Source of the DNA: Pseudonocardiales bacterium
Lineage (GTDB): Bacteria > Actinomycetota > Actinomycetes > Mycobacteriales > Jatrophihabitantaceae
Direction of reading: 5' to 3'
Assembly: GCA_030840285.1 (NCBI GenBank)
Contig: JAVEES010000107.1
Location: 1 to 34,398 of the forward strand
DNA length: 34,398 nucleotides
The notes beneath the pieces are model-generated. The model saw nothing but the letters and a program-made list of their open reading frames with translations, was not told the origin of the DNA and ran no database searches. The translations under genes and the position numbers were made by a program. Shown one piece after another: positions 1,986-19,857 of the stretch. The first letter of the stretch is position 1. Each line of letters begins with the position of its first letter.

Positions 1986-1997
1986 GAAATCGATTTC
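1986..1997 (-). promoter_or_regulatory. LacI-type operator GAAATCGATTTC in spacer of predicted promoter TTGACC-N17-CACACT
   Basis: Perfect 12-bp palindrome; -35 at 2000-2005, -10 at 1977-1982 (minus strand), upstream of the FGGY kinase. Confidence 0.8.
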
Positions 1998-2079
1998 ACG
2001 GTCAAGGATGGGTGGCCGTGCGAGGGTCACCCATCCTTGAGCCGGCCCTTGAGCGGGCGACGCGCAGCCTGAAGGCGCT

Positions 2080-3264
2080 TCAGCGTTGAAATACCGCGAC
2101 CGGCAGGTCGGTGAGTCGCTCCACCTGGCCGTTCTGATCGACCAGATATGGGTCTTCATGCCGCGAGCCGTGGAAGGTCGGATGGTGGAACAGGCCGATG
2201 TCCAGCATCATCGAAATTCCGGTCGGAATCTCGTAGTCGCTGACGGCGGTGGCCGTCTTCTCCTCCAGGCACTCGCTCAAGCCGATGCCGTGGCCGACCC
2301 CGTACATGTGGAAGCGATCCAGCCCGACGGTGGCGAGATAGTTCCGTGCCGCAAGGTCGATCTTGTTTGCTGTGTTACCGACGAAGAGCTGCTCGGCGGA
2401 CAAACTCAACGCAACTGCCGCGTGGTTGAGGAATTCCGCCTGCTCGGCCGTCGGGGAGCCGGCCACGACGGTACGGCCAACGGTAGAGGCGTAGCCGCGA
2501 AAACGTGGGCTTGCTCCGATCAGCACCATGTCGCCGCTCTCAATCCGGCGCTCGCTGGCCCTGCCGATGACTGTATTGATACGCGGGCCTGAGCAGACCA
2601 TCGTGTCGAAACCGGTCGAATACGCGCCGAGTGCCTTCATCGTGCTGTCCCCGACGGCGGCCACTTCCAGCTCGGTGATTCCCGGTCGGAGCTCGTCCAG
2701 CATTGCTCGTACGGCCGCGCCTGCGATCGCGCTGGAGCGCCTGAACAGGGCAAGTTCGGCCGGGGACTTCTGATAGCGCAGGACCCGCAGTATTTCGCTC
2801 ACATCGACGGGCTGGGCGCCTAGGTCAGACAGCTCGTTGTAAATGCTGGCCGGGATGCTGTCCAGGGCAGAAATTAGGCCCACGAGCGTAGGTATCTCAC
2901 CCAGCAGATCCCGCAGGACCTCGCCGAGGCTCCAGAACTTCGTGTCACCGTAATCCTGATACGGGATCTCGAAGCTGTTCAGATTGCGCCAGGTGCCCAG
3001 CCGGCCGGAATCGGCGAACATCGCCTCACCCTCTGGGCCGCCCATCGGCACGACCTCGTCCTGGGTGACTGCCAGCAAGCCGCACTCCAAGTGCGGGTCA
3101 TAGCCGGTCAGGTACTGGATATCGCCGGGAAGGTGCGGGCTTGCGTAGGCAATGCCGACGCTGAGTTGCGCAGCGGCAAGGCGTTCGCGAAGCCGTGCCA
3201 CCCGTGTCTCATATTCGGTTGCCGACAACTCCGGCACGCTGTCTAGGGCTAATAGATCTGTCAT
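2080..3264 (-). CDS. M24 family metallopeptidase (Xaa-Pro aminopeptidase/creatinase fold)
   Basis: Creatinase-type N-domain, PITELEVAAVGDSTM..., GVGHGIGLSECLEE, MMLDIGLFHHP. Confidence 0.85.
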   Translation of the reverse strand: MTDLLALDSVPELSATEYETRVARLRERLAAAQLSVGIAYASPHLPGDIQYLTGYDPHLECGLLAVTQDEVVPMGGPEGEAMFADSGRLGTWRNLNSFEIPYQDYGDTKFWSLGEVLRDLLGEIPTLVGLISALDSIPASIYNELSDLGAQPVDVSEILRVLRYQKSPAELALFRRSSAIAGAAVRAMLDELRPGITELEVAAVGDSTMKALGAYSTGFDTMVCSGPRINTVIGRASERRIESGDMVLIGASPRFRGYASTVGRTVVAGSPTAEQAEFLNHAAVALSLSAEQLFVGNTANKIDLAARNYLATVGLDRFHMYGVGHGIGLSECLEEKTATAVSDYEIPTGISMMLDIGLFHHPTFHGSRHEDPYLVDQNGQVERLTDLPVAVFQR

Positions 3265-3314
3265 TGCAGCCTCCGAGGCTGTGCGGAATCAGCGGTCTGG
3301 TTGCGCGCAATCCT

Positions 3315-3326
3315 GGTATCGTTCCC
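3315..3326 (-). promoter_or_regulatory. Possible second-class LacI operator GGTATCGTTCCC in spacer of TTGACA-N17-CAGGAT
   Basis: -35 at 3333-3338, -10 at 3310-3315 on minus strand, upstream of M24 gene and divergent LacI-1. Confidence 0.5.
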
Positions 3327-3447
3327 ACATCGTGTCAAGACGTGAGCGGTACTTCGGACGGGGACTGGCCTATCCGGGGACGGTTCATGTGGTGGACTTC
3401 ACGGATAACCGAATTCTTGGGCTGTCGCCGTACCGGAGGTCTCTGCG

Positions 3448-4458
3448 ATGACAACGCTGTCCGACGTAGCCAAGCACGCCGGCGTCTCTGTCTCCACAGC
3501 GTCCCGAGTGTTGTCCGGGCAAGGCTATGTCAGCCAGGCAAGCCGGATTCGCGTTGTGGACGCGGCCGAAATGCTCAACTATGCACCGAACCACATGGCT
3601 CGAAGCCTGCGCCTCAACCGCACCCATATCATCGGCCTCGTCGTGGCAGACATTGAGAACTTCTTCTATTCCCAGATCGCGAAGGGTGTCACCTCAGTGG
3701 CCCGCGAACACGGCTATCACGTCGTGCTGGCCAACAGCGAGGAAAACCGAAAGCTCGAATCGCAGCAGATTCAGATGCTGGCCAATCTTAGAGTGGACGG
3801 CTTGATCTTCACCCCCACCGGAGGTAACCGCCGTCAGCTTGAAAGTAGCTTCATCTCCAGCGGGATCCCTGTGATTCAGGTGGACCGGCGGGTGCGGGGG
3901 CTACCGGCCGATGCCGTGCTGGCCGACAACGTGGGCGGCGCTCAGCAGGCGGTCGAGGCGCTGCTGGACGCAGGACATACCCGGATCGGGATTCTCGCCG
4001 GTTCGCAGCTTGTGACGACCGGCAAAGCGCGGTTGGCGGGCTATCGTCGGGCACTCGAAGCGCGCGGGATCGCATTCGACGAATCGCTCGTCGGTCGCGG
4101 CTTGTTCACCCGAGACTCGGCTCTCAAAGATGCGCATGACATTCTCTGCCAGCGCCCTCGTCCCACAGCCTTGTTCGCTGCGAACAACATCCTGGCCGAA
4201 GGGGCCGCTCGAGCACTGGTCGAACTAAGGCTGGTTGCTCCGAAGGACATCTCCATCGTCGCCTTCGATGATGCGCCGTGGATGTCGGCGATCGCCCATC
4301 CCTTGACCACCGTGGACCAGCCCGCCAGAGAGGCAGGACGGGTGGCCGCCACGCTGTTGCTGGACAGGCTTAGCGGTGGCCAAGGGGCCGAACCACAAAC
4401 TGTCGTTCTGAGCCCGCGCCTGATCAGCCGAAATTCGGTTGGACCGCCTCGTCGTTGA
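3448..4458 (+). CDS. LacI-family transcriptional regulator (LacI-1)
   Basis: N-terminal HTH TTLSDVAKHAGVSVSTASRVLSG, periplasmic-binding-like effector domain. Confidence 0.95.
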   Translation: MTTLSDVAKHAGVSVSTASRVLSGQGYVSQASRIRVVDAAEMLNYAPNHMARSLRLNRTHIIGLVVADIENFFYSQIAKGVTSVAREHGYHVVLANSEENRKLESQQIQMLANLRVDGLIFTPTGGNRRQLESSFISSGIPVIQVDRRVRGLPADAVLADNVGGAQQAVEALLDAGHTRIGILAGSQLVTTGKARLAGYRRALEARGIAFDESLVGRGLFTRDSALKDAHDILCQRPRPTALFAANNILAEGAARALVELRLVAPKDISIVAFDDAPWMSAIAHPLTTVDQPAREAGRVAATLLLDRLSGGQGAEPQTVVLSPRLISRNSVGPPRR

Positions 4459-5104
4459 CGTCCCGCGCCGCCGCACGCAGCGCAGCGAGTGCTGCCGAAG
4501 GATCGGGTTGATTCACCAACGCACGGCCGACCACGAAATGTCGCGCCCCCGCCTGAGCCAACGGGCCGATGTTCGAACTGCTGAGGTCGCCGTCTACTTG
4601 GATCTCCAATCGGGTCCCGAAGACCGCCCGGGCACGCCGGACCCGTTCGGCCATCATCTCAAGCATGCGCTCGCCGGCCAGATCCGGTTCGGTGGTGAGA
4701 AGATTGATGAAGTCCAGGCCTTCGGTCAAATAGCCGAGTGCTGCCAGTTCGCTGACCGGATTCAGAGCCATTCCGGCAGTTACGCCAAGGTTTCGGGCGA
4801 CGCTGGCGACTCGCGCCGGATACCTGGTCGACTCACAATGAAATGCGACCCTGCTGGCGCCCGCATCCGCTGCGGCACGAAGTTGTTCCTCCGGTGTGGA
4901 CACCATGAGATGCGCCTCGACGGGAATGTGCACGACGTCGGTGAGCGCCCTGATGGTCCGATGGCCGAAGGTCAGATCCGGCACGAAGACGCCATCGGCG
5001 ACGTCGACGTGAATGCCGTCCGCGCCAGCCTCCTGCAATGACACGGCGACATCCGCCAGCCGACCGAGATCGGCGCTCGTTATCGATGCCCAGATGGTGT
5101 TCAT
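4424..5104 (-). CDS. Ribulose-phosphate 3-epimerase family protein (Rpe/SgcE/AlsE-like)
   Basis: HVDVADGVFVPDLTFG, VEAHLMVSTPEEQL, MALNPVSELAALGYL, IQVDGDLSSSNIGPLAQAGARHFVVGRAL motifs. Confidence 0.9.
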   Translation of the reverse strand: MNTIWASITSADLGRLADVAVSLQEAGADGIHVDVADGVFVPDLTFGHRTIRALTDVVHIPVEAHLMVSTPEEQLRAAADAGASRVAFHCESTRYPARVASVARNLGVTAGMALNPVSELAALGYLTEGLDFINLLTTEPDLAGERMLEMMAERVRRARAVFGTRLEIQVDGDLSSSNIGPLAQAGARHFVVGRALVNQPDPSAALAALRAAARDVNDEAVQPNFG

Positions 5105-6231
5105 GGCGGCGGAGCCGGCTGGTTGATGCCACGTCCCAGATCGAGCGACGCGGCATCGGATACCAGTGCATGCAACAGCCTGATGGTGGCCGAGAGATCG
5201 GAAAGCTGGCCGGTTTCGACGGGACTGTGGGTATAGCGAACCGGTATTCCCAAGCCGACAGCGGCAATTCCCTCGGCACTGGCCATCGGCAGGAACGCCG
5301 CGTCCGTGATGAGTCCGATGATCGCCTCGTACTGAAGATCGACGCCGGCAGTTGCCGCCGCGGACTCCACCGCCGTTACCAGCGCCGGATGCGGGATCAG
5401 GCCACCCAGCGTTCCCCGGCCGTGGAAGGAAAGTCGCGAAAGGACGACTCCGCCACCTAGGCGGACTGGCGAAACGCCTGCTAGATCAGGCGTATCTGTC
5501 GCCGGCGAGACGTCGACGTTGATGACTATATCGGGGTTGAAACGCTCAGCCAGGGCGAGCGTGCCACGGACGTGAAACTCCTCCTGGGTGCTGAAGGCAA
5601 TCGCCACCGGACCGATCGCGGGATCCGCCGTCAGCCTGTCCACCAGCGCCAACAGGGCCGCGACACCGAATCGATCGTCCAAGGAGGTGGTCGCGACCCG
5701 GTCGCTGGCAAGCAGTTGCCAGGTGAAGCCGTAAGCGCAGGGGTCGCCCACCCTGATACCGAGCTGGGCGACCTCGCTGGGGTTGCGTGCTCCGACGTCG
5801 AGGTACAACTCGGTGACGGGCTGACCTCGGTATTTCTCCTCCGGCGGTGTTAGGTGATGGCTCTTGACACCCACCACCGCGGGAACATCGCCGTTGCGGG
5901 TCATCACTGTGATCTGCATCCCGGGTAGAACCCGTTCAGGGACGCCTCCCAATCGCTGAACTCGGAGATAGCCAGTTGGTTCGATCGAGGCAACCACCAG
6001 ACCCAATTGGTCCAGATGAGCCGTGACGAGCACCCTGTTTCCGTCACCGGTTCCCAGGCTGACCGCCACCTGGCCGAGCCGGTCGGTCACCGGATCGAGA
6101 CCACGACTGATCAGATGTCTCGTGATAAGCGCCGAAAGTCGATCCTCGTGACCCGACGGTGCCGGGACGGCACACAGATCATGAAGCACACCACCGAGAT
6201 CGTCCTCGAGGTTGTCCGGCCAGCTGGTCAT
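5101..6231 (-). CDS. M42 family metallopeptidase (SgcX/FrvX/YpdE-like)
   Basis: Start at MTSWPDNLEDD (ATG 6231); LCAVPAPSGHEDRL, VTAHLDQLGLVV, LDDRFGVAALLAL, FSTQEEFHVRGTL, YTHSPVE; 4-bp overlaps with both neighbours. Confidence 0.88.
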   Translation of the reverse strand: MTSWPDNLEDDLGGVLHDLCAVPAPSGHEDRLSALITRHLISRGLDPVTDRLGQVAVSLGTGDGNRVLVTAHLDQLGLVVASIEPTGYLRVQRLGGVPERVLPGMQITVMTRNGDVPAVVGVKSHHLTPPEEKYRGQPVTELYLDVGARNPSEVAQLGIRVGDPCAYGFTWQLLASDRVATTSLDDRFGVAALLALVDRLTADPAIGPVAIAFSTQEEFHVRGTLALAERFNPDIVINVDVSPATDTPDLAGVSPVRLGGGVVLSRLSFHGRGTLGGLIPHPALVTAVESAAATAGVDLQYEAIIGLITDAAFLPMASAEGIAAVGLGIPVRYTHSPVETGQLSDLSATIRLLHALVSDAASLDLGRGINQPAPPP

Positions 6232-7760
6232 GTATGTGATCCCTCTTCCGGCTCGGCGCCGGAACCCTCGTCGGCAGGCGGACTGTCCAGCTGGCTGCTC
6301 ACGGTGCTCACCGTGGCATAGCGCGCGTTTCGCTGTGCGGCGTACTCGCGGTCTCCACTCTGCGGGTCGGCTACCACTTCGAGCTTGGGAGCCCACGCCG
6401 AGGCGATCTCACCGACGGGCGCGCCGAGCAGGACCGCGGCGGCCTGGACTGCAGCTCCGCGCGCTGACATCGCGTCCCCTTCGGTAGCGGGTACGTGCAC
6501 GGATTGGCCGGACAACGAGGCGAGCAGCTGGCGATAGGCCGCCGATCTTGCGGCTCCACCCGTCACGAGAAGCCTTCCGTTCATGGGCATTCCGGTGTCG
6601 GCGAGGGCCTGACGCCCCTGCAACAGCCCCAGTACGACGCCTTCGACCACTGACAGCGCAAACTCCTCGCGGGTCGTTGCGGAGCCGAGATCGGCCAGCA
6701 CGCCATGGGCGAAGGGCCGGTTCGGCGTGCGCTCGCCGTCGAGGTAGGGCACCAGAATCGGACGCCGGTCATCGTGGCGGTCGGCCGCAAGTGCGAGCAC
6801 AGCGAACGTGTCGTGGTCCACGCCCAGCAACCGCGCGAAGGTATCGCTCACCTTCGCCGCGTTGAGGGTGATGACCACCGGCTGGAACGCGCCGGACGCG
6901 CTGGCCGTACCGTTCACCAGGCCCGCCGAGTTGCTGACCTGACTCGTGCTGAGGCCGGTCACGACGCCAGAGGTTCCCAGTGAAAACAGCATGTCGCCCG
7001 GCTCGATGCCAAGGCCGAGTGCCGCCGCGGACTGGTCGCCGGTGCCCGGCCCGACGATCGTGTCGGCGGTGAGTCCGAGCGCCTGCGCGCGGTCGGTGCA
7101 TGCCAAGCCGGCAGCCGTCTGCGGGCCCCGCACCTCCGGTAGTTGGTTGACCCAATCCCGGTGTGGGTCGATGTGGGCGAGCAGATCCTCACACCAGCGG
7201 TTTTCCACGGGATCGAAGTAGCCAGTGCCGGAGGCATCGGCCCGATCGGTGACCGGCACGCCCGTCAACTGCATCGTCAACCAGTCGTGGGGCAGAAGTG
7301 CCATCGTCATCCGTTGGAACGCCGCGGGCTCATGTTCGGCGAGCCAGGCCAGTTTCGTCACCGTGAATGCCGCCGTCGGAACGGAGCCTGTCCGACGAAT
7401 CCACTCCGCTGGACCTAGCTGGCGAACGAGCTTTGCCGCTTGCGGCGCGGAGGTCGTGTCGTTCCACAACTTCACCGGTCGAAGCACTTCGGCATCGGGA
7501 CCAAGAGCGACCAGTCCGTGGTGCTGCGCGTCGATCGAGATTGCCGAGATCGCCGAAGGGGTACACCGCGCCCGAGCACAAGCACTCGTCAGCGCCTGGG
7601 TAAACGCCTCCCACCAGCTCTCGGGATGTTGCTCGCTGATCGGTGGCGTCGTACTCGGATGCGGGGCGCTTGCCACGGCCAGCCTCGCTCCGCTGTCCAC
7701 GTCATGCAGCACAACCGTGCAGGACTGGGTTGAGGAGTCGACCCCCGCGACCAGACCCAT
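6228..7760 (-). CDS. xylB: Xylulokinase / FGGY-family kinase
   Basis: GVDSSTQSCTVVLHDVD, SIDAQHHGLVALG, LWNDTTSAPQA, LLVTGGAARSAAYRQLLAS; ATGA overlap with the M42 gene. Confidence 0.9.
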   Translation of the reverse strand: MGLVAGVDSSTQSCTVVLHDVDSGARLAVASAPHPSTTPPISEQHPESWWEAFTQALTSACARARCTPSAISAISIDAQHHGLVALGPDAEVLRPVKLWNDTTSAPQAAKLVRQLGPAEWIRRTGSVPTAAFTVTKLAWLAEHEPAAFQRMTMALLPHDWLTMQLTGVPVTDRADASGTGYFDPVENRWCEDLLAHIDPHRDWVNQLPEVRGPQTAAGLACTDRAQALGLTADTIVGPGTGDQSAAALGLGIEPGDMLFSLGTSGVVTGLSTSQVSNSAGLVNGTASASGAFQPVVITLNAAKVSDTFARLLGVDHDTFAVLALAADRHDDRRPILVPYLDGERTPNRPFAHGVLADLGSATTREEFALSVVEGVVLGLLQGRQALADTGMPMNGRLLVTGGAARSAAYRQLLASLSGQSVHVPATEGDAMSARGAAVQAAAVLLGAPVGEIASAWAPKLEVVADPQSGDREYAAQRNARYATVSTVSSQLDSPPADEGSGAEPEEGSHT

Positions 7761-7838
7761 CGGGACGCTCCTGTCTGCATCAGCTTCAGCGGGTCACGAG
7801 GACGTTGACACTGTCCGCTCTATGCCCCTACCATTCCA

Positions 7839-7850
7839 GCAATCGATTTC
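7839..7850. promoter_or_regulatory. LacI-type operator GCAATCGATTTC shared by divergent xylB and amidase promoters
   Basis: 11/12 match to GAAATCGATTTC; minus promoter TTGACA (7856-7861)-N17-TGGAAT (7833-7838); plus promoter TTGACA (7805-7810)-N18-TACCAT (7829-7834). Confidence 0.75.
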
Positions 7851-7933
7851 TCGGTTGTCAATCCCGGTATGCCATGCCCCCGTCCGGCTGGCACCGCTGC
7901 TAAGACCGAGGCCCGAAAACAGAGGAGCGGTCC

Positions 7934-9406
7934 ATGGCCGACGACGTATTTTTCACCTCAGCCACCGAGCTCGCGCGCCGCATCAGGACTGGCGAGCTTT
8001 CGGCCGGCGAGGTTGCCGAGACGTTCCTGCGCAGGATCGACGATCTCAACCACGAGACGAACTCCTTCACCGAGGTCACGCACGACCTGGCGATGGACAC
8101 AGCGAAACGCTGCGATGAAGCGGCGGCACGAGGAACGAGTCTGGGTCCGTTGCACGGCGTCCCGGTCGGCATCAAGGACCTATTCGATTTCCGGGCCGGT
8201 GTCCGAAACACGTTCGGCTCGCTGCCACTCAAGGACTTTGTGCCAGCGAGCACAACGGAATACATCCAGCGGCTCGAGAACGCCGGCGCGGTCATCGTGG
8301 GCAAGACCAATGCTCCTGAATTCGGCCACAAGGGAATCACCGACAACTTCGTCAGCGGGCCTTGCAGCACGCCCTTCGACCTGAGCAGGAACGCAGGTGG
8401 ATCATCCGGGGGCAGTGCCGCCGCGGTGGCGGCAGGCTTGGTACCAATGGCGCAGGGCACCGACGGCGGCGGCTCGGTACGAATCCCATCAGCCTGGTGC
8501 GGCACCTTCGGATACAAGCCCTCATTCGGCCGCATTGCTGACATCGCCCGTCCGAACTCGGCTGTTTCGACCAGCCCGTTCGTCTCGACCGGCCCGATCA
8601 CCCGCTCGGTGGATGACGCGGCGCTGATGCTCTCGGTTATGGCTGGTCCACATCCTCGTGACCCGTACTGCCTGCCTGCGATCGCTGGTGACTGGTCTAT
8701 TCGGGACCACTCGGGCCTGGCAGGCAAGCGAATCGCGTTCAGTGCAGATCTCAGCGGCTTCCCTGTCGATGCGGAAATCGCCGCCAAGATCAGCGATGCG
8801 GCGACCTCACTTGAGCTTGCCGGCGCATCGGTACACCACGTCGACATCAAGTGGCCGGCCGACCAGTTCGAGCTCTCGAGTTTATGGCTGCGCATCACCG
8901 GCCTGATGTACATCTCGGCGCTCGAGGCGATCAAGGGTTGGGGCGTAGACCTGATGAACGACCACATCGACGCTCTTACGCCGGCCTTCCGCGACATGGT
9001 GCTAGCCGCTCAGCTGCTGAGCGAGGACGAGGTGCTGCAGGACAAGATCCTTCGCACCGCTGTGCAGGACGCGGTCCAGGACGTATTCGACGACTATGAC
9101 TTCATCGTCTCGCCTACCCTGGCGACCTCTCCGGTGCCCAACGCATCGGACGGCCTGACCGTCGGTCCGAGCGAGCTGAACGGAACCGCGGTCGATCCGT
9201 CTATCGGCTGGTGTTTGACGTACCCCTTCAATTTCACCGGCAACCCCGCCGCATCCGTCCCAGCGGGGCTGACCAGCGCGGGGCTGCCGGTCGGCATGCA
9301 GATCGTCGGCCGCCAGCACGCTGACCTCGATCTGCTGGCAGCCTGCGCTGCCTACGAGGCCGTTGCTCCGTGGCTGGACACCTATCCAGGCCACACGGGA
9401 TCGTAG
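7934..9406 (+). CDS. Amidase signature family (GatA/AtzE-like) amidohydrolase
   Basis: HGVPVGIKDLFDF, GKTNAPEFGHKG, NAGGSSGGSAAAVAAGLVPMAQGTDGGGSVRIPSAWCGTFGYKPSFGR (amidase signature Ser-Ser-Lys). Confidence 0.95.
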   Translation: MADDVFFTSATELARRIRTGELSAGEVAETFLRRIDDLNHETNSFTEVTHDLAMDTAKRCDEAAARGTSLGPLHGVPVGIKDLFDFRAGVRNTFGSLPLKDFVPASTTEYIQRLENAGAVIVGKTNAPEFGHKGITDNFVSGPCSTPFDLSRNAGGSSGGSAAAVAAGLVPMAQGTDGGGSVRIPSAWCGTFGYKPSFGRIADIARPNSAVSTSPFVSTGPITRSVDDAALMLSVMAGPHPRDPYCLPAIAGDWSIRDHSGLAGKRIAFSADLSGFPVDAEIAAKISDAATSLELAGASVHHVDIKWPADQFELSSLWLRITGLMYISALEAIKGWGVDLMNDHIDALTPAFRDMVLAAQLLSEDEVLQDKILRTAVQDAVQDVFDDYDFIVSPTLATSPVPNASDGLTVGPSELNGTAVDPSIGWCLTYPFNFTGNPAASVPAGLTSAGLPVGMQIVGRQHADLDLLAACAAYEAVAPWLDTYPGHTGS

Positions 9407-9419
9407 GTACCCGGCTTAG

Positions 9420-10601
9420 CTAGAGAAGATCGAACCGGGGCGCCCGTTCGACGGGTTGCAGGCAGTCCAGGAGCCCCTCGACCACAGGCACGGTCCACGC
9501 AATGTTCGCCGCGCTGGCGCGGTTGGGAATGTCCTCCGGACGGTGGAGCAGGTCGAAATCGTTGAAGGTCAGGTGCAGACTCGGAATTCCGGCCGCGTAG
9601 AACGGGGCATCATCTGTTCCGATCAGCGGCGGGAAACGTGAGGACAGCCGCAGCGCTGATCGCCCCGATGATCGGGCGGCAGACCTTAGCTGGGTGGTCA
9701 CGTCGAATTCGAGGGTTTCAGGACCAACCGAATACTCCAGAAGATCTCCCCGTCCAAGCCCGTCGATATTGATCACCAAGCCCGTCGAATCCCGTTCATC
9801 CGCTGTCATAGCTGCCACGTAGGTACGTGAGCCGGCAAGGTGCCATTCCTCCGCGGCGAAGAAAACCAGCCGTACCGGACAACGTGCCGGACGGGCTGAC
9901 CACCTGCGCGCCAGTTCCAGTAGGGCGATCGTTCCACTGCCGTTGTCGTAGGCGCCCGGCGTGTTCCAGAACGTGTCGTAGTGGCCGCACACGATAGCGC
10001 GCTGCGCGCTCGGGTCTCGGCCTGGCAGATCGAGGTAAAGATTGCTGCCAGTGGCAAGCGAGGCCTGTTGAGTGTCGACGGTGAGCCGCACGCTGACGTC
10101 GTTGCCGTTCGCGATCCAGTTGGTGAGCCTCACGCCGTCCTGGTGACCGATCGCGAGGTGAGGGATGGCGGCGGCCGATCCGGATGGCAGCGGTTGAGGT
10201 GCGGCGGGGCCACTGTCGCGGGCTAGGAGGTAGGCCACCGGAGCGCCGTTCGCGACAACCGCGAACTTCTGCCAGACCATCGCGTTGATCCAGAGTCCCT
10301 GCCTGCCCAACGGGAGCACGAAACCTTCGATAGGACCGGAGGATGACGCACTCCAGAGCATCGGCCAGCATTCGACCGCCTGCTCGATCGGTGAGGTAAG
10401 GAGCAACTCGGGGGAGCCCTCCGGGCGCCATCCGATCGTCTGTACCTGTTGAGTGGTAGCCGCGATACCGAGGTCGGCGAGCTGCTTGGCCAGGTACTCG
10501 GCTGCCAGCGTCTCGCCGGACGAGCCGTGAAACCGCGGGCCGAGTTCTACCAGTGAGCAGAGCGCTTCATAGACCTTGTCCGTGTCCGGTGCACCATTCA
10601 C
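9420..10601 (-). CDS. M28 family zinc peptidase
   Basis: IVCGHYDTFWNTPGAYDNGSGTIALLELAR, VFFAAEEWHLAGSRTYV, GTDDAPFYAAGIPSL. Confidence 0.88.
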   Translation of the reverse strand: MNGAPDTDKVYEALCSLVELGPRFHGSSGETLAAEYLAKQLADLGIAATTQQVQTIGWRPEGSPELLLTSPIEQAVECWPMLWSASSSGPIEGFVLPLGRQGLWINAMVWQKFAVVANGAPVAYLLARDSGPAAPQPLPSGSAAAIPHLAIGHQDGVRLTNWIANGNDVSVRLTVDTQQASLATGSNLYLDLPGRDPSAQRAIVCGHYDTFWNTPGAYDNGSGTIALLELARRWSARPARCPVRLVFFAAEEWHLAGSRTYVAAMTADERDSTGLVINIDGLGRGDLLEYSVGPETLEFDVTTQLRSAARSSGRSALRLSSRFPPLIGTDDAPFYAAGIPSLHLTFNDFDLLHRPEDIPNRASAANIAWTVPVVEGLLDCLQPVERAPRFDLL

Positions 10602-10649
10602 AGAGGTTCCTTTCGGCGGTGCGCGCGCTGCGGCCGATCGGATCGGCCG

Positions 10650-11963
10650 CTAGTTGGCCTGCCAGCACCAATCGAGAATCATGCCCGCGTATGCCTTTGC
10701 CGCCTGGACGACTTCCTCGATCAGAATGTGCTCGTTGAGCCCGTGGACCCCGTTGCCGACCAGCTTGCCAGGGCCGCACACGATGGCTGGCTGCCCCGCG
10801 GCGGCGAACAGGTTCGCATCGGACGGCGTTCGCATCAGGCTGACCGGCGAGGCGTTTCCGGTCACCTCGGTGATCGCGCGGGCGAGTGAATTGACCGCGG
10901 GATCATCGAGCGGAATATCGATGGGGTCATAGAAGGTATGCAGGAAGGGGTAGGTGATAACGGGGGGATGTGCCGATAGCCATGGGTCGCCGACGCAGAC
11001 CGTATCTATCACCTGCTGAATCTCCTTCAGCCCTTCCGCACAGCTGCGAGTCGGGCTCAAGGTAACGGCGAGAACGGCCGAGCAGCTGTCCGGAGTGGTC
11101 GCCTGCATGCCGCCACCGGCAATCTGGACAGGGTTCATCGCCATCGTGCCCGGGACCATCAGCGGGTGCTTCTCATACAGTCCCCACTGTTGCTCCAACT
11201 CGCGAAGCCGGGCGAGGATCCGAGTCATCACCTCAATCGCGTTGACTCCGACAACCCCCTCCACCGACGGGTGGATCGATCGCACCCGGCCCGCCGCATG
11301 ACCTGCCTCGCCCTCCACCGTGATCTGGAAGAAGAACCACCCGACCGCTGCCGGGCATACCTCCAGGCCGGTGGGCTCTGCGATGACGGCCATATCCGCC
11401 GTCGCCCCGTTGTCCAAGATGTTGTGCGGCCCGAGATCGACCTCACCTGACTCCTCGCCGATGATGAAGGCGGCGGTCACCTGACCTGGTGGAACTATTC
11501 CGACCTCGGCGAGCGCGCGGATCGCCCATACGATCGCGGCGTTGCCGCCCTTCATGTCTGAGGCGCCTCGCCCGTACAGCGCTCCGTCGACGACGTGCCC
11601 GCTCCACGGATCTCCACCGAGCCACTGCGCGTAGTGCTGTTCGGTCACCGGCACAACATCGGTATGGCCGTTGAACAGGACCGACCGGTGTGTCTTGGGA
11701 GAACTCGAGCGCATCGAAGCGATGACGTTGAAGTCGTCCGGACCAGCTTGGACAAGTTTCACCTCGTCGAAGCAGCCCAGATCTGACAGGTAGCCGCTGA
11801 GCCAGCGCTGACACTCGGTCGTACCACCCGGTTCGAAGTCGAGTTCACGGTTGGGATTGATCGACTTGTGCTGAACATATTCGGCCAGAAATTCGGTCAA
11901 GGCTCCGCGGGTGGTGTCGATCTCGGCGAAGACACGCTCCTTGACGTTCTCAGACTCCACCAT
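10650..11963 (-). CDS. M20 family metallopeptidase (ArgE/DapE-like)
   Basis: FNGHTDVVPVTEQHYAQWLGGDPWSGHVVDGALYGRGASDMKGG; start MVESENVKERV at 11963 preceded by CAGGAG SD (track ORF extends further 5'). Confidence 0.9.
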   Translation of the reverse strand: MVESENVKERVFAEIDTTRGALTEFLAEYVQHKSINPNRELDFEPGGTTECQRWLSGYLSDLGCFDEVKLVQAGPDDFNVIASMRSSSPKTHRSVLFNGHTDVVPVTEQHYAQWLGGDPWSGHVVDGALYGRGASDMKGGNAAIVWAIRALAEVGIVPPGQVTAAFIIGEESGEVDLGPHNILDNGATADMAVIAEPTGLEVCPAAVGWFFFQITVEGEAGHAAGRVRSIHPSVEGVVGVNAIEVMTRILARLRELEQQWGLYEKHPLMVPGTMAMNPVQIAGGGMQATTPDSCSAVLAVTLSPTRSCAEGLKEIQQVIDTVCVGDPWLSAHPPVITYPFLHTFYDPIDIPLDDPAVNSLARAITEVTGNASPVSLMRTPSDANLFAAAGQPAIVCGPGKLVGNGVHGLNEHILIEEVVQAAKAYAGMILDWCWQAN

Positions 11964-12085
11964 TTGCCCAATCTCCTGGAGCGTTGATCGCGTTGTTCTG
12001 AAGGCCGCCACCGGTGACTGCGAGCCGCCTGAACGATACCCCACCATTGCGGCCGATCCGACGAATGAACCGCCTTGTTAAGCCC

Positions 12086-13027
12086 TTACCGGTTGGCCCC
12101 ACTCATGGTCATTCCCGCCACCACGTAACGCTGGCCCAGGGTGTACATCAGCAGCAGCGGTATGACGCTGAGAGTCGAGGCCGCCATCAGCCAGGACCAG
12201 ATTGCCGAACCCTGTCCATTGAGATATGCCAGGCCGACCGCCACCGGCATCTTGTTCTGATCGTTGACGAAGATCAGCGGCGAAATCATGTTGTTCCATG
12301 AGTTGATGAACGTCACGACGCCCAGGGCGGTGAACGCCGACGTGCTTAGCGGCACGTAGATGTTGCGCAGCACCCGCAGGGGACCGCAGCCATCCAGGGT
12401 CGCTGCCTCACCGAGTTCCCGAGGAATGCCACGGAAGAGCTGCCTCAGAAGGAAGATGCCGTAGGCGTTGCCGAGGAACGCAGGAACGATGAGTGGATAC
12501 CACGTATTGATCCAGCCGATCTTGGACATCTCAGCGAAGATCGGAACCATCGTCGCGGCAAAGGGAACGGTCAACGTCCCGAGGATCACGAGGAAAATGA
12601 ATTCCCGGCCGCGAAACCTCAGATACACCAAGGCGAATGCAGCCATCGCGCACGAGATGAGGGTTCCGATCGTGACTGCCGATGAGATGAGCAGAGAGTT
12701 GAGCAAGAACCGCAGGAACGGGTACAGCTTGAGAATCTTGCTGTAGGCATCCACGGTCCAGGTGTGCGGAAGGATCGTGGGCGGAAACGCGTTGACCTCA
12801 CTCTCGGTCTTGAACGAGGTGAGCAACATCCAGATGATCGGAAACAGCACGATCAGAGTGACGATTATCAGTAGGGTGTAAAGGCTTGTCACCACCAGAA
12901 CCCGGCCCACTGCCGGCCGGCTCAGGGTCCTCTGGGCCTTGGCGGGCCGACGACCGTTAACCGTAGTGGTCTGCGCGGCGGCCGCTGGGGCCGTTTCGCT
13001 CTCGGCTGTCCTCGGATTAGTTCTCAT
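12086..13027 (-). CDS. Carbohydrate ABC transporter permease (MalG/UgpE type)
   Basis: Multiple TM segments; EAA-loop ELGEAATLDGCGPLRVLRNIYVPLS. Confidence 0.92.
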   Translation of the reverse strand: MRTNPRTAESETAPAAAAQTTTVNGRRPAKAQRTLSRPAVGRVLVVTSLYTLLIIVTLIVLFPIIWMLLTSFKTESEVNAFPPTILPHTWTVDAYSKILKLYPFLRFLLNSLLISSAVTIGTLISCAMAAFALVYLRFRGREFIFLVILGTLTVPFAATMVPIFAEMSKIGWINTWYPLIVPAFLGNAYGIFLLRQLFRGIPRELGEAATLDGCGPLRVLRNIYVPLSTSAFTALGVVTFINSWNNMISPLIFVNDQNKMPVAVGLAYLNGQGSAIWSWLMAASTLSVIPLLLMYTLGQRYVVAGMTMSGANR

Positions 13028-13949
13028 AGTGCACCAACCGGTTCTGAAGTCGCAGCATCAGCGCCGTACCAACCGAAAGGATCACGAGGAAGGTCACTGA
13101 TGCAGCCGAGGCGTAGCCCATTCGCAGGTAGCTGAAGCCTTGCTGGAATATGAAATAGATGATCGTCAAGGTGGTATTGCCTGGACCGCCCTGAGTCATG
13201 ACGTAGGTCTGCTCGAAGACCTGGAACGACATGATGATGCCGATCAGTGCACCGAAGAAGATGGTCGGTGACAGGAGCGGAATAGTGATGTGCCGAAACT
13301 TTCGCAAGTTGCCGGCGCCATCGATCGCGGCGGCGTCATACAGTGTCTCCGGAACAGCCTGCAGGCCGGCCAGGAAGACGATGATGTTGAAACCGATCGA
13401 TCGCCATACCCCCACGATGATGATCGAGGGCATGGACATGTTCGCGCTCGTCAACCACTTGTAGGGGCCGAGGCCCACGAAGTGGAACAGGTAGTTCAGC
13501 AGGCCGTATTGCGGGTTGAACATCCAGGACCACAGAAGGCCGCTGGCAACGACCCCGACTGTCATCGGCACGAAGAACAGAACCCGGAACAGGGACATCG
13601 CCGGCAACTTCTGGTTCAACAGCAGGGCGATACCCAGGCCGAGAGCCATGCTGAGCGGCACCGAGATTCCGGTGTAGTAGAGCGTGTTCTTCCACGCGGT
13701 CCAGAAGACGGTGTCGTGAAACAGCTGCTTGAAGTTTGTCAGGCCGACCCAGGTGGGACTGCCCAACAAGCTCCAGTCGGTAAAGCTGATGTAGATGGCA
13801 ACGAGAAACGGACCGACGGTGAAGAACAGCAGGCCGAGCAGCGTCGGGCTGACGAGCGCCCAACCCCACAGAGATTCGCGACGCGCTGCCTTGCTTCGTG
13901 GACGAATAACTCTGCGGGACGTCTCGGTTCTGGCAAACACCGCTAACAC
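13017..13949 (-). CDS. Carbohydrate ABC transporter permease (MalF/UgpA type)
   Basis: Multiple TM segments; EAA-loop TLYDAAAIDGAGNLRKFRHITIPLLSP; overlaps downstream permease by 11 bp. Confidence 0.92.
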   Translation of the reverse strand: MLAVFARTETSRRVIRPRSKAARRESLWGWALVSPTLLGLLFFTVGPFLVAIYISFTDWSLLGSPTWVGLTNFKQLFHDTVFWTAWKNTLYYTGISVPLSMALGLGIALLLNQKLPAMSLFRVLFFVPMTVGVVASGLLWSWMFNPQYGLLNYLFHFVGLGPYKWLTSANMSMPSIIIVGVWRSIGFNIIVFLAGLQAVPETLYDAAAIDGAGNLRKFRHITIPLLSPTIFFGALIGIIMSFQVFEQTYVMTQGGPGNTTLTIIYFIFQQGFSYLRMGYASAASVTFLVILSVGTALMLRLQNRLVHYEN

Positions 13950-13966
13950 TCTCCTTCGATCATTCG

Positions 13967-14006
13967 CTCGGCCCTTACGCTGGCCGATGCCCAGCTCTCG
14001 GCCGAG
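13967..14006 (-). other. Intercistronic hairpin between SBP and permease genes
   Basis: CTCGGCC (13967-13973)/GGCCGAG (14000-14006) enclosing GCTGG (13979-13983)/CCAGC (13991-13995). Confidence 0.55.
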
Positions 14007-14009
14007 GCG

Positions 14010-15380
14010 TTAGCTCCACGCGATGGGTGAAAGCTTGCTGGAGTCGAACCACGGGTAGCGGGATAGGGAGTTGTTCACCTGCGAGGTAGCGGACTTCATC
14101 GCGTCGGCGACGTTGGCGTTGGTATTGAAGCAGGCATCCAGCGCCTTGCTATAGATGCCCTGGTACTCCAGCCACGCCGGATGGAAGGCAAAGTCGAAGT
14201 GATTCTTCCAACCGTCCGTCCACGCCTTCATATTCGGGGCACCCGTCTGCAGGAACGATGGGCTGGCCGCGGCACTCTTCAGCGACGGCGTCAAACCACG
14301 TCCTGGCGTCTTGGCCGTGATGTCCTGACCTTGGGTGACGATGAAGTCGAGCAGCTTCCAAGCCTCGTCCGGGTGCTTGGTGGTTGAACCCATGACCCAG
14401 GACTGGTACCAGCCGATGCCGCCGGGCTTCTGCTTCTTCGGCATCTCGACGACGTTCCACTTGAAGTCCTTGATCTGGGAGAGCAACGCCATCTCATAGT
14501 TGCCCTGCACCTTCATGCCGATCAGGCCGGTCAGGAACGGGTTACCGGTGGACTGGATGTAACCGGGCAGGGATGAGATGCCAAGCGGCGCCGGTGAAAC
14601 CTTGTACTTGTGGATCAGATCCACGGCGAACTGGATGGCCTCGATGGCCTCTGGCTGGTCCAGCGCGCCCTTGGTGTACGTCGAATCGAGGAAGTTGCCG
14701 CCGTTTTCACGTACGAAGCTTCCCCAGACCTCCTGGGAGCTGTTCCAGGAGTAGAAGCCGTACTGTTGCTTGCCATTCTTGTTCTTCTTGGTCATCGCTT
14801 GCGCCGCGTGCAGCAGTTGGTCCCAGCTCCAGCCGGCCGTCGGCGCATCCAGACCAGCAGCCTCGAACATGTCCTCGTTGTATGCCAGCGCGACGTGGTC
14901 GATCTCGCCCGGGATGCCGTAGACCTTGTTCTCCCACACGGTGTCCTCGCCGGTCGGCGAGCCGAAGTAGTTGTCCAGCGAGATGTTCGCGGTCTTGATC
15001 CGGTCGGTGAGATCCATCAGCGCCTTGTTCTGAACCGCCTGGTAGAAATAGGCGCCGCTCATCATGAAGACGTCAGGCAGTGTGCGGGATGCAATCGATG
15101 TCGCCAGCTTGCTGTAGTACGTCGAGAAGTCGGTCCGGGTGAGCTTGATATCGATATCTGGGTTGGCCTTCTTGAACGCTGCGATGATGTTGTCCTGAAT
15201 CGCCGTCCGGGACGGTTCGGAGTACATCCACACATTGAGCGTTGCCTTGCCGGATTTCGATCCGCCTCCGGAACTGCCGCCGCAGCCCGCAAGAAGGCCG
15301 CCCAGCGATGCCGCGCCAACCACTGAGCCAGCTGCTCCGAGGAACCCGCGTCGCGAAAGCCCGCGCTCCAGACCGTCCAT
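14010..15380 (-). CDS. Extracellular sugar-binding lipoprotein of ABC importer (Tat-type signal)
   Basis: Start MDGLERGLSRRGFLGAAGSVVGAASLGGLLAGCGG at 15380 with AGGAG SD; twin-arginine plus lipobox LLAGC; solute-binding family 1 body. Confidence 0.92.
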   Translation of the reverse strand: MDGLERGLSRRGFLGAAGSVVGAASLGGLLAGCGGSSGGGSKSGKATLNVWMYSEPSRTAIQDNIIAAFKKANPDIDIKLTRTDFSTYYSKLATSIASRTLPDVFMMSGAYFYQAVQNKALMDLTDRIKTANISLDNYFGSPTGEDTVWENKVYGIPGEIDHVALAYNEDMFEAAGLDAPTAGWSWDQLLHAAQAMTKKNKNGKQQYGFYSWNSSQEVWGSFVRENGGNFLDSTYTKGALDQPEAIEAIQFAVDLIHKYKVSPAPLGISSLPGYIQSTGNPFLTGLIGMKVQGNYEMALLSQIKDFKWNVVEMPKKQKPGGIGWYQSWVMGSTTKHPDEAWKLLDFIVTQGQDITAKTPGRGLTPSLKSAAASPSFLQTGAPNMKAWTDGWKNHFDFAFHPAWLEYQGIYSKALDACFNTNANVADAMKSATSQVNNSLSRYPWFDSSKLSPIAWS

Positions 15381-15481
15381 GATCGCTCCTAATCTAAGAC
15401 TCGATATACCGGCAAAGGTTCCGCCAGTTTCCGGGGACTCCGGTGTTCGTGACGTTGTGTTGCCACTCGCGACAGCGAGTG

Positions 15482-16261
15482 TCAGGGTGTTGTCGATCGT
15501 TCGCCTGCCAGCCAGGTGAGCAGCTGCACGAATACATCGGCGAATGGCGGCCACTCGAGAAAGTCGAGGCTTGCCCAATGCGGCGCGCAGTCGGTGGTGA
15601 ACGCCCCGACGCGCCCGGAACCATGGCTACCGACGACGATCAGCGGGTCGTCTTCGACCGCAACGATCGTGGTGGCATCCGGCTTCGCCCGGACCTTGTT
15701 GTAGCCAAGGACATACGGCCAGGCCGCGGGCAGATCGGTCACGGCTGGGTGCGTGGACTGCACGACCTTGGGCTCTACGCCATCCGGACGTTCCACCCGA
15801 TCGTCGTAATCGCTCATGATCACCGGAAGCACCTCGGCCAGCGGGCTGCTACCGAATCTGGCCCTGCCCTGCATTCCAGCAAAGGACATGTAGCCGCCAA
15901 CCATCAGCAGCGCACCGCCCTGCGAGACCCATTCCGCGAGGACTCTCAGCCGGCTGACGCTGCGCCTGCCGGCGAGGCAGTCGTCGGTCAATTCGAAAGA
16001 ATCCGCACCGACATCGCTGAGCACCACGACGTCAAATTCGTTCAGCGCTGCTACCGAGGCGGGAAAGTCCCGGGCGACGAGGTGGGCTGGAATGCGCGAC
16101 ACTTCGATGCCAGCCGCCTCGAGCCCATTGACGAGCTCGATGCCGCCTTCCTCGTAACGCGGTTGTGTAAAGACATCGCTGCCCTTGATATGCGTGCCAC
16201 CCGAGACCCAACTTTCGCCGGCAAGGATCACGCGCGGCTTCCTCAGCGCTGGCAAGTCCAT
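15482..16261 (-). CDS. Glutamine-amidotransferase-like protein (DUF1355/PF07090 type)
   Basis: PRVILAGESWVSGGTHIKGSDVFTQPRYEEG..., DVVVLSDVGADSFEL, GGALLMVGGYMSFAGMQGRARF; first gene of the ABC operon. Confidence 0.75.
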   Translation of the reverse strand: MDLPALRKPRVILAGESWVSGGTHIKGSDVFTQPRYEEGGIELVNGLEAAGIEVSRIPAHLVARDFPASVAALNEFDVVVLSDVGADSFELTDDCLAGRRSVSRLRVLAEWVSQGGALLMVGGYMSFAGMQGRARFGSSPLAEVLPVIMSDYDDRVERPDGVEPKVVQSTHPAVTDLPAAWPYVLGYNKVRAKPDATTIVAVEDDPLIVVGSHGSGRVGAFTTDCAPHWASLDFLEWPPFADVFVQLLTWLAGERSTTP

Positions 16262-16288
16262 TTTGAACCCTTCATGCGGGGCGCTTCT

Positions 16289-16300
16289 GAAATCGATTTC
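16289..16300 (-). promoter_or_regulatory. LacI-type operator GAAATCGATTTC at predicted TSS of promoter TTGACA-N17-TAATTT
   Basis: Perfect palindrome; -35 at 16329-16334, -10 at 16306-16311 on minus strand, driving the DUF1355-SBP-permeases-M20-M28 genes. Confidence 0.82.
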
Positions 16301-16405
16301 TCGGAAAATTACCAGCCTGGCTGTGGAGTGTCAACGGTTCTTCTTGCGGTGCCTTGCATCGGCTTGCTGCCGTGGCCGTTACGACGAATCGGCCTACATG
16401 CCAGG

Positions 16406-16434
16406 TTCACAACGGCGCTGTGCGCCTGTAACGT
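16406..16434 (+). promoter_or_regulatory. Predicted promoter TTCACA-N17-TAACGT for the BtpA-family gene
   Basis: -35 16406-16411, -10 16429-16434, followed by a 12-bp hairpin in the leader. Confidence 0.45.
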
Positions 16435-16605
16435 TTTAGCTCCGCGCAGGCCGCGCTGTGCTTTCAGCACAGCGCGGGTCCTTCGGCAGCGCGTCGTCAT
16501 TTTCACCCAACCGCGCGCTGGATTTCCGGCGCCGGCGCTCGTGAGGTGACCCAAGCCAGGGGCTGGCACCGTCGGCAGAAGTTCGGCAACCATTCAGGAG
16601 GATCT

Positions 16606-17412
16606 GTGACATCACGTTTCGCCAAGACATTTCCCGGCATCAGTAAACCGCTTATTGCGATGGCGCATGTGCCGCCCCTGCCGGGTACCCCGCTCTACGA
16701 TTCCGCCGCCGGGGTTCAGGGCCTGGTGGATCAGGTGAAGGGCGATACCGAGATCCTGCTGGAAGCCGGTTTCGATGCCATTCTCTTCTGCAACGAGGGA
16801 GACCGTCCCTACCAGCTGCGCGCCGGATTGGAGTCCTCGGCGGTGATGGCGCGCGTGGTGACGGAATGCCATCCGACCGATCGCCCCTATGGCGTCGACT
16901 TCCTTTGGGACGCCTCGTGTGCGCTGGCGGTCGCCGTAGCGACCGACGCGAGTTTCATGCGGGAAGTCGTAACCGGCGTATGGGAATCCGACATGGGGCT
17001 CTGGCAGACCGATGCCGCGACTGTCCTGCGGGAGCGCCGGCGGCTCGATCGTGACGACCTTGCGATCTTCATGAACATCACGCCCGAATTCGCCTCGCCG
17101 ATCGGGCAGCGCAGCGCGGCGCAGAGCGCGCGTTCCGCGGTGGTGTCCAGCCTGGCCGACGGCATCCTGGTCTCCGGACCGATGGCCGGCGCGGAGCCGG
17201 ACGTCCGGACCGTCGCAGAGGTGCGGGAGGCAGTCCCCGTTGATGTGCCGGTCCTGCTCAATACCGGAGCCAAGGCCGCAACCATCGCCCAGTATCTCCA
17301 GCATGCCGACGGATGCATCGTCGGCAGCGACCTGAAGGTGGACGGCTACACCTGGAATCCGGTGGACCCGCAACGCGCCAGGCGATTCATCGAATCCGCC
17401 CGAGCTGTTTAG
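16606..17412 (+). CDS. BtpA/SgcQ family protein
   Basis: GTG start at 16606 with CAGGAGGATCT SD; KPLIAMAHVPPLPGTPLYD, FDAILFCNEGDRPYQL, DGILVSGPMAGAEPD, PVLLNTGAKAATIAQYLQHADGCIVGSDLKVDG (TIM-barrel BtpA pattern). Confidence 0.85.
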   Translation: MTSRFAKTFPGISKPLIAMAHVPPLPGTPLYDSAAGVQGLVDQVKGDTEILLEAGFDAILFCNEGDRPYQLRAGLESSAVMARVVTECHPTDRPYGVDFLWDASCALAVAVATDASFMREVVTGVWESDMGLWQTDAATVLRERRRLDRDDLAIFMNITPEFASPIGQRSAAQSARSAVVSSLADGILVSGPMAGAEPDVRTVAEVREAVPVDVPVLLNTGAKAATIAQYLQHADGCIVGSDLKVDGYTWNPVDPQRARRFIESARAV

Positions 17413-18701: not shown

Positions 18702-18713
18702 TAAATCGATTCC
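18702..18713. promoter_or_regulatory. Degenerate LacI-type operator TAAATCGATTCC upstream of LacI-2
   Basis: 10/12 match to GAAATCGATTTC, just upstream of a TATATT -10-like box (18721-18726). Confidence 0.6.
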
Positions 18714-18825: not shown

Positions 18826-19857
18826 ATGACGACGATCTATGACGTGGCAAAACACGCCGGGGTGTCACCGGCCACCGTGTCGCGCGTGCTCAACGGTCAT
18901 GCCCGGGTGAATCCCACCCTTGCCCGCCGGGTGAACCAGGCGACCGCGGAACTCGGATTCCAGCGCAATGCGGTGGCTCGCAACCTCAGGCGCAGTCGCA
19001 CCTCGTTGTGGGCGGTCATCATCTCCGACATCGAAAACCCTTTCTTCACCTCGCTCGTTCGAGGCGTCGAGGACGTCGCGCAGTCCGCTGGTTATTCCGT
19101 CGTGTTGTGCAACAGCGACGAGAATTTGAAGAAGGAAGCCGACTACGCCTCTGCCGCGATGGCCGAACGGATGGCAGGCGTGATCATCTCGCCGGCGTCC
19201 GAGCGATCCAGTGATGTCAGCGCGTTGCTCGAAGCCAAGATGCCGGTGGTGGCGATCGACCGCGCGATTCGCGGCGCGCAGATGGACAGTGTGCGCGTCG
19301 ATAACGCCCAGGGTGCGGCAGAAGCGACAAAACATTTGTTAGCGGTCGGCTACCGCCGGGTCGCCTGCATAACGGGTCCGCAGCGGGCCACCACGGCCGG
19401 TCAGCGGCTCAAGGGCTACGAGCGAGCGCATCGCGCGGCCGGGGTGGGCCTAGATCCCCACCTGGTCCGGCACGCCAACTTTCGTCAGCAGGGTGGCTAT
19501 GAGGCGATGGAGTCGCTGCTCGCGCTGCCTGAGCCACCCGACGCTGTCTTCGTTGCCAACAACTTGATGACCGTCGGTGCGCTCGCCTGCCTGACTGACC
19601 ACGGAATCGCTATTCCGGATGAGATGGGCATCGTCGGCTTCGACGACATTCCGTGGGCGCAGCTGATCCGGCCGACGCTGTCGGTGGTCAGGCAGCCGAC
19701 CTATGACGTCGGGCAGACCGCCGGGCATCTGTTGATGCAGCGGATCGCTCATCCGACCCGGTCACCGTCAACCGTCGTCCTGTCGACCCGACTCAGCATC
19801 GGACACAGCTCGTCTCGGGCCGCGGCGCCGCGCGCCCTGGTCGCCGACCGGCGCTGA
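18826..19857 (+). CDS. LacI-family transcriptional regulator (LacI-2)
   Basis: TTIYDVAKHAGVSPATVSRVLNGHARVNP HTH; effector domain. Confidence 0.95.
   Translation: MTTIYDVAKHAGVSPATVSRVLNGHARVNPTLARRVNQATAELGFQRNAVARNLRRSRTSLWAVIISDIENPFFTSLVRGVEDVAQSAGYSVVLCNSDENLKKEADYASAAMAERMAGVIISPASERSSDVSALLEAKMPVVAIDRAIRGAQMDSVRVDNAQGAAEATKHLLAVGYRRVACITGPQRATTAGQRLKGYERAHRAAGVGLDPHLVRHANFRQQGGYEAMESLLALPEPPDAVFVANNLMTVGALACLTDHGIAIPDEMGIVGFDDIPWAQLIRPTLSVVRQPTYDVGQTAGHLLMQRIAHPTRSPSTVVLSTRLSIGHSSSRAAAPRALVADRR

Follow-up and report, generated by a model that had tools for sequence, protein, structure and literature searches.

Overlapping promoters facing in opposite directions, with a common operator, serve divergent metabolic genes in the bioA/bioBFCD and argE/argCBH regions of Escherichia coli, which are controlled by BirA and ArgR, respectively. 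These regions resemble the xylB/amidase gap described here in their general layout, though their repressors belong to other families and their operators are longer or double. Bidirectional promoters, in the sense of Warman et al., have been defined by divergent start sites lying 7-25 bp apart (PMC10268837), with preferred start spacings of 18, 10, and 23 (PMC12825309). In the five E. coli bidirectional promoters that were tested, basal activity was in every case insufficient for competition, and strong interference appeared when one direction was made stronger, by activation or by a better -35 element (PMC12825309). At PacrA/acrR, opposed promoters have -10 DNA in common and the repressor AcrR shuts both RNAs (PMC12825309). 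Among actinobacteria, the divergent genes scbA and scbR of Streptomyces coelicolor have overlapping promoters with one repressor acting on both, the promoters overlapping by 53 bp and the transcripts being convergent and overlapping (PMC7384680). For the LacI family, operators are commonly even palindromes with a central CG, located mostly 30-140 bp upstream, and autoregulation is common (PMC4052901).

The closest described kind to the xylB/amidase gap is the bidirectional promoter with common -10 DNA under one repressor, as in PacrA/acrR. The repressor of PacrA/acrR, however, is an autoregulatory protein of the TetR family and is joined by the activators SoxS and MarA, whereas the gap has a candidate repressor of the LacI family, no known activator site, full consensus in both -35 boxes, and a predicted start separation of 15 bp. 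This separation differs from the preferred spacings (PMC12825309), while falling inside the defining range of 7-25 bp (PMC10268837). The gap is like scbA/scbR in joining divergent actinobacterial genes through overlapping promoters, although its predicted transcripts, unlike those of scbA/scbR, do not overlap. Two-way promoters with one repressor site are already known, and the xylB/amidase gap is a further actinobacterial case.

Promoter elements of the xylB/amidase gap

The start codons of xylB (7760, minus strand) and of the amidase gene (7934, plus strand) are separated by a gap of 173 bp, the features of which are collected in Table 1 together with those of the surrounding cluster. The second gene of the xylB operon probably starts near 6231, overlapping the end of xylB, judging by the congeneric genome G010, rather than at the limit of the listed reading frame. 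An earlier note on this DNA had proposed two opposed promoters and an operator in the gap, and all letters and coordinates of the hexamers, spacers, and operator were verified in the sequence, as was the overlap of the -10 boxes, TACCAT and TGGAAT having two bases (7833-7834) in common on opposite strands. Both of the opposed -35 boxes have the full consensus.

Table 1. Coordinates of genes, promoter elements, and predicted operators in and around the xylB/amidase gap
Feature	Position	Strand	Remarks
LacI1	3448..4458		LacI family, inside cluster
Ribulose-phosphate 3-epimerase family protein	4424..5104	minus	xylB operon gene 3
M42 peptidase family protein	5101..6396	minus	xylB operon gene 2; listed ORF
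xylB (xylulokinase)	6228..7760	minus	TIGR01312 match above cut-off
Amidase promoter -35 TTGACA	7805..7810	plus	exact consensus; invariant in G010
Amidase promoter -10 TACCAT	7829..7834	plus	18-bp spacer; TANNNT type; scanner match 10/12
xylB promoter -10 TGGAAT	7833..7838	minus	17-bp spacer; 4/6 match; invariant in G010
Predicted LacI-family operator GCAATCGATTTC	7839..7850		one mismatch to GAAATCGATTTC; invariant in G010
xylB promoter -35 TTGACA	7856..7861	minus	exact consensus; invariant in G010
Amidase	7934..9406	plus	PF01425
Perfect operator GAAATCGATTTC	1986..1997		spacer of kinase-1 promoter TTGACC-N17-CACACT, ahead of FGGY kinase
Perfect operator GAAATCGATTTC	16289..16300		predicted start of GATase1-like/ABC/peptidase operon, TTGACA-N17-TAATTT; conserved in G010
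Probable autoregulatory operator TAAATCGATTCC	18702..18713		weaker site, upstream of LacI2
LacI2, proposed repressor	18826..19857	plus	PF00356 and Peripla_BP domains

A search for exact TTGACA followed after 16-18 bp by a -10 box with at least four of six matches yielded exactly two hits in the window, that is, the whole stretch of 34,398 nucleotides that was analysed, and these are the plus and minus promoters of the gap; shuffled windows gave a mean of 0.28 matches to the same search. Dinucleotide shuffling of the 173-bp gap, repeated 20,000 times, never produced an overlapping, opposed pair of promoters, and such a pair was absent, at a looser threshold (10/12), from 666 kb of other loci. 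A chance match is thus rejected for the promoter pair by the shuffles together with its conservation. The pattern TTGACA-N30-60-TGTCAA occurs once in the whole draft genome (3.83 Mb), in the xylB/amidase gap. Across 24 genomes of the family, the bare pattern stays at chance level, being about as frequent as a reversed control, and inverted TTGACA pairs as a general theme of the family were rejected on this ground; it is therefore the context that carries weight and not the pattern alone.

Conservation could be followed in a single orthologous gap, on contig C312 of the draft assembly of G010. Footprinting is limited to these two genomes because the relatives of xylB, whether from genomes throughout the order or from GTDB contigs, have other contexts, and 395 genomes sampled from the class yielded nothing closely related to the amidase. 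Between the two genomes, xylB is 84% identical and coding DNA about 81-85% identical, and the gap block 7800-7865 retains 62 of 66 bases; no change affects any hexamer, the operator, or the five bases that separate the operator from the minus -35 box. All four changes fall within the plus spacer, despite which its TACCAT is unchanged. The flanking leaders are identical at 27/39 and 49/69 positions (69-71%), a significant difference from the block (Fisher P = 2e-4), the limits of which approximately coincide with the two -35 boxes. G010 (L055:6858-6991) is also without a stretch matching 2007-4006, which holds the M24 peptidase gene and most of LacI1, through either a deletion or an assembly effect, and keeps the C-terminal end of LacI1 as a remnant.

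These observations bear on how many promoters are at work in the gap. It is unlikely, though deserving of some weight, that only one promoter functions, most likely the plus promoter of the amidase, with the opposite TTGACA being fortuitous or paired with an unrecognised -10 box. The minus box TGGAAT is without the key A at -11, so that its exact position is less certain than that of the plus -10, and a simple promoter scanner listed the plus promoter and left out the minus one because TGGAAT is without A at position 2; the alternative box AATGGT (7835-7830) has A and T rightly placed, but would require a spacer of 20 bp. Against this, the minus promoter has both a perfect TTGACA, spaced by 17 bp, and the TGC of an extended -10 element preceding TGGAAT, all of them invariant in G010, and the gap on the xylB side has no other comparable promoter. 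Far less probable, to the point of being hardly credible, is that the block was conserved for another reason, such as the site of a further regulator or a recent transfer of the cluster, and that the genes use activator-dependent starts elsewhere. The cluster was found in only two of the nine genomes of the genus that were examined, making an exchange between the two possible, but the block is 94% identical as against 69-85% for coding DNA and leaders, and its limits are those of the two -35 boxes.

Operator, regulon, and candidate repressor

The predicted operator of the gap, numbered from the predicted amidase start, spans approximately -2 to +10; numbered from that of xylB, it covers about -24 to -13. 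It lies some 80 bp away from the start codon of each gene. Its perfect form, GAAATCGATTTC, has two exact copies in the 3.83-Mb genome, at 1986 and 16289, both of them in this cluster. The site at 1986 is conserved in G010 and recurs at the equivalent position in two genomes of another family, where the layout TTGA.., operator, TGG, and.ACA.T precedes a kinase of 71% identity. At 16289, both the sequence and the length (18) of the promoter spacer are altered in G010 while the -35 box, -10 box, and operator are kept, which supports the view that the hexamers are genuine promoter elements in the lineage. The operator variant of the gap is also found ahead of LacI2 orthologs and ahead of one ortholog of kinase 1. 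Judged from these recurrences, the operator of the gap is part of a real local regulon, and the earlier proposal that a single operator is positioned for blocking the amidase and the xylB operon alike gains support from the comparison. The regulon uses a start-site placement (16289) and a spacer placement (1986) separately, and the gap therefore merges both on one operator. An even palindrome with a central CG at several target promoters (1986, 7839, 16289, and 18702), autoregulation, and sites about 80 bp upstream are likenesses to local sugar regulons of the LacI family, the searched text of the paper describing these (PMC4052901) containing no match to the GAAATCGATTTC-type motif.

LacI2, not the nearer LacI1, is the likely regulator acting on this operator, because all that is left of LacI1 in G010 is a C-terminal piece of 88 residues (87.5% identity), LacI2 is kept there at 92% identity, and the motif is found upstream of LacI2 orthologs. 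The gap upstream of many, though not all, of the LacI2 orthologs examined in the order contains GAAATCGATT[TGC]C or a motif close to it, counted within two mismatches. The view that LacI1 binds the operator, either instead of LacI2 or together with it, draws on its position within the cluster and its membership of the same family, but appears improbable: all operators are intact in G010 despite the truncation, no other match to LacI1 above 38% identity is found in that genome, and no GAAATCGATTTC-like site precedes LacI1. As the main repressor candidate, LacI1 was rejected for its truncation in G010, a draft assembly, where the operators remain. Two observations were made on relatives of LacI2. 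At L115:11006-14160, a LacI2-linked kinase-1 ortholog adjoins a gene whose matches to L-fucose-isomerase domains are weak (below cut-off), a neighbour that gives a hint of the class of sugar sensed by LacI2 relatives. Genomes of another family have a single operator common to a LacI2 homolog and an ABC permease gene divergent from it, beside TACTAT/ATAGTA (L119:9896-9907 and L118:4553-4564), which may be a further bidirectional promoter with a lone LacI site.

The cluster itself (4424-17412) encodes FGGY kinases, homologs of ribulose-phosphate epimerase, M42 peptidase, and BtpA/SgcQ, and a sugar ABC transporter. It is reminiscent of the little-understood sgc cluster of E. coli (sgcX, sgcQ, and sgcE), except that the PTS is replaced by an ABC transporter and kinases. 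The order xylB-M42-epimerase recurs together with a BtpA homolog on an Acidimicrobiaceae contig (L029). Four genes of different metallopeptidase families (M20, M24, M28, and M42) and the amidase lie in or beside the sugar regulon (9420-12047 and 2080-6396), which suggests that the substrate may be an N-acylated or amino-acid-conjugated sugar.

A proposed bidirectional switch

The gap quite probably works as a compact bidirectional promoter of the sigma-A type, both directions of which would be shut by one operator bound by LacI2. Counting 7 nt from each -10 box places the predicted starts at about 7841 for the amidase (plus strand) and about 7826 for xylB (minus strand), or at 7823 if AATGGT with its 20-bp spacer is used, the latter giving a separation of 18 bp. 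The earlier description of the promoters as face-to-face is loose, since transcripts from the predicted starts diverge without overlapping; the 5' transcript overlap of face-to-face promoters of the scbA/scbR type is absent on these starts, and the arrangement they define is that of a bidirectional promoter with overlapping -10 elements.

RNA polymerase would bind in either orientation over the same DNA of about 57 bp, in mutually exclusive modes, producing an amidase mRNA in one direction and an xylB-M42-epimerase mRNA in the other. A LacI2 dimer on the single operator would occupy the amidase start site and sit within the xylB spacer, such that one binding event would close both directions. 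The operator covers part of each promoter, and a bound dimer should therefore block both, making repression of both directions by one protein likely from the positions of the elements. Both genes would be freed, along with the remaining operons of the regulon, by an inducer that is presumably a sugar or sugar phosphate belonging to the pathway. As the predicted transcripts diverge, elongating polymerases should not collide, and any competition would take place between two holoenzymes for the same DNA. Competition after derepression is plausible on account of the two consensus -35 boxes. That the operator is fitted into the bidirectional promoter to give all-or-none repression, with polymerase exclusion on induction setting the ratio of amidase to xylB-operon mRNA, is a more doubtful idea and is offered tentatively; if true, the arrangement would be a selected dual-output switch and not a by-product of -10 symmetry.

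How bidirectional promoters are controlled has been examined at no more than a few sites in E. coli, to which the xylB/amidase gap adds a compact example from an actinobacterium, where two consensus -35 boxes go together with a single operator and a candidate repressor. The gap is suited to a direct test of both the block of the two orientations by a repressor and the competition between polymerases after its departure. For the organism, the arrangement would bring an amidase into the same regulon as a sugar-kinase operon.
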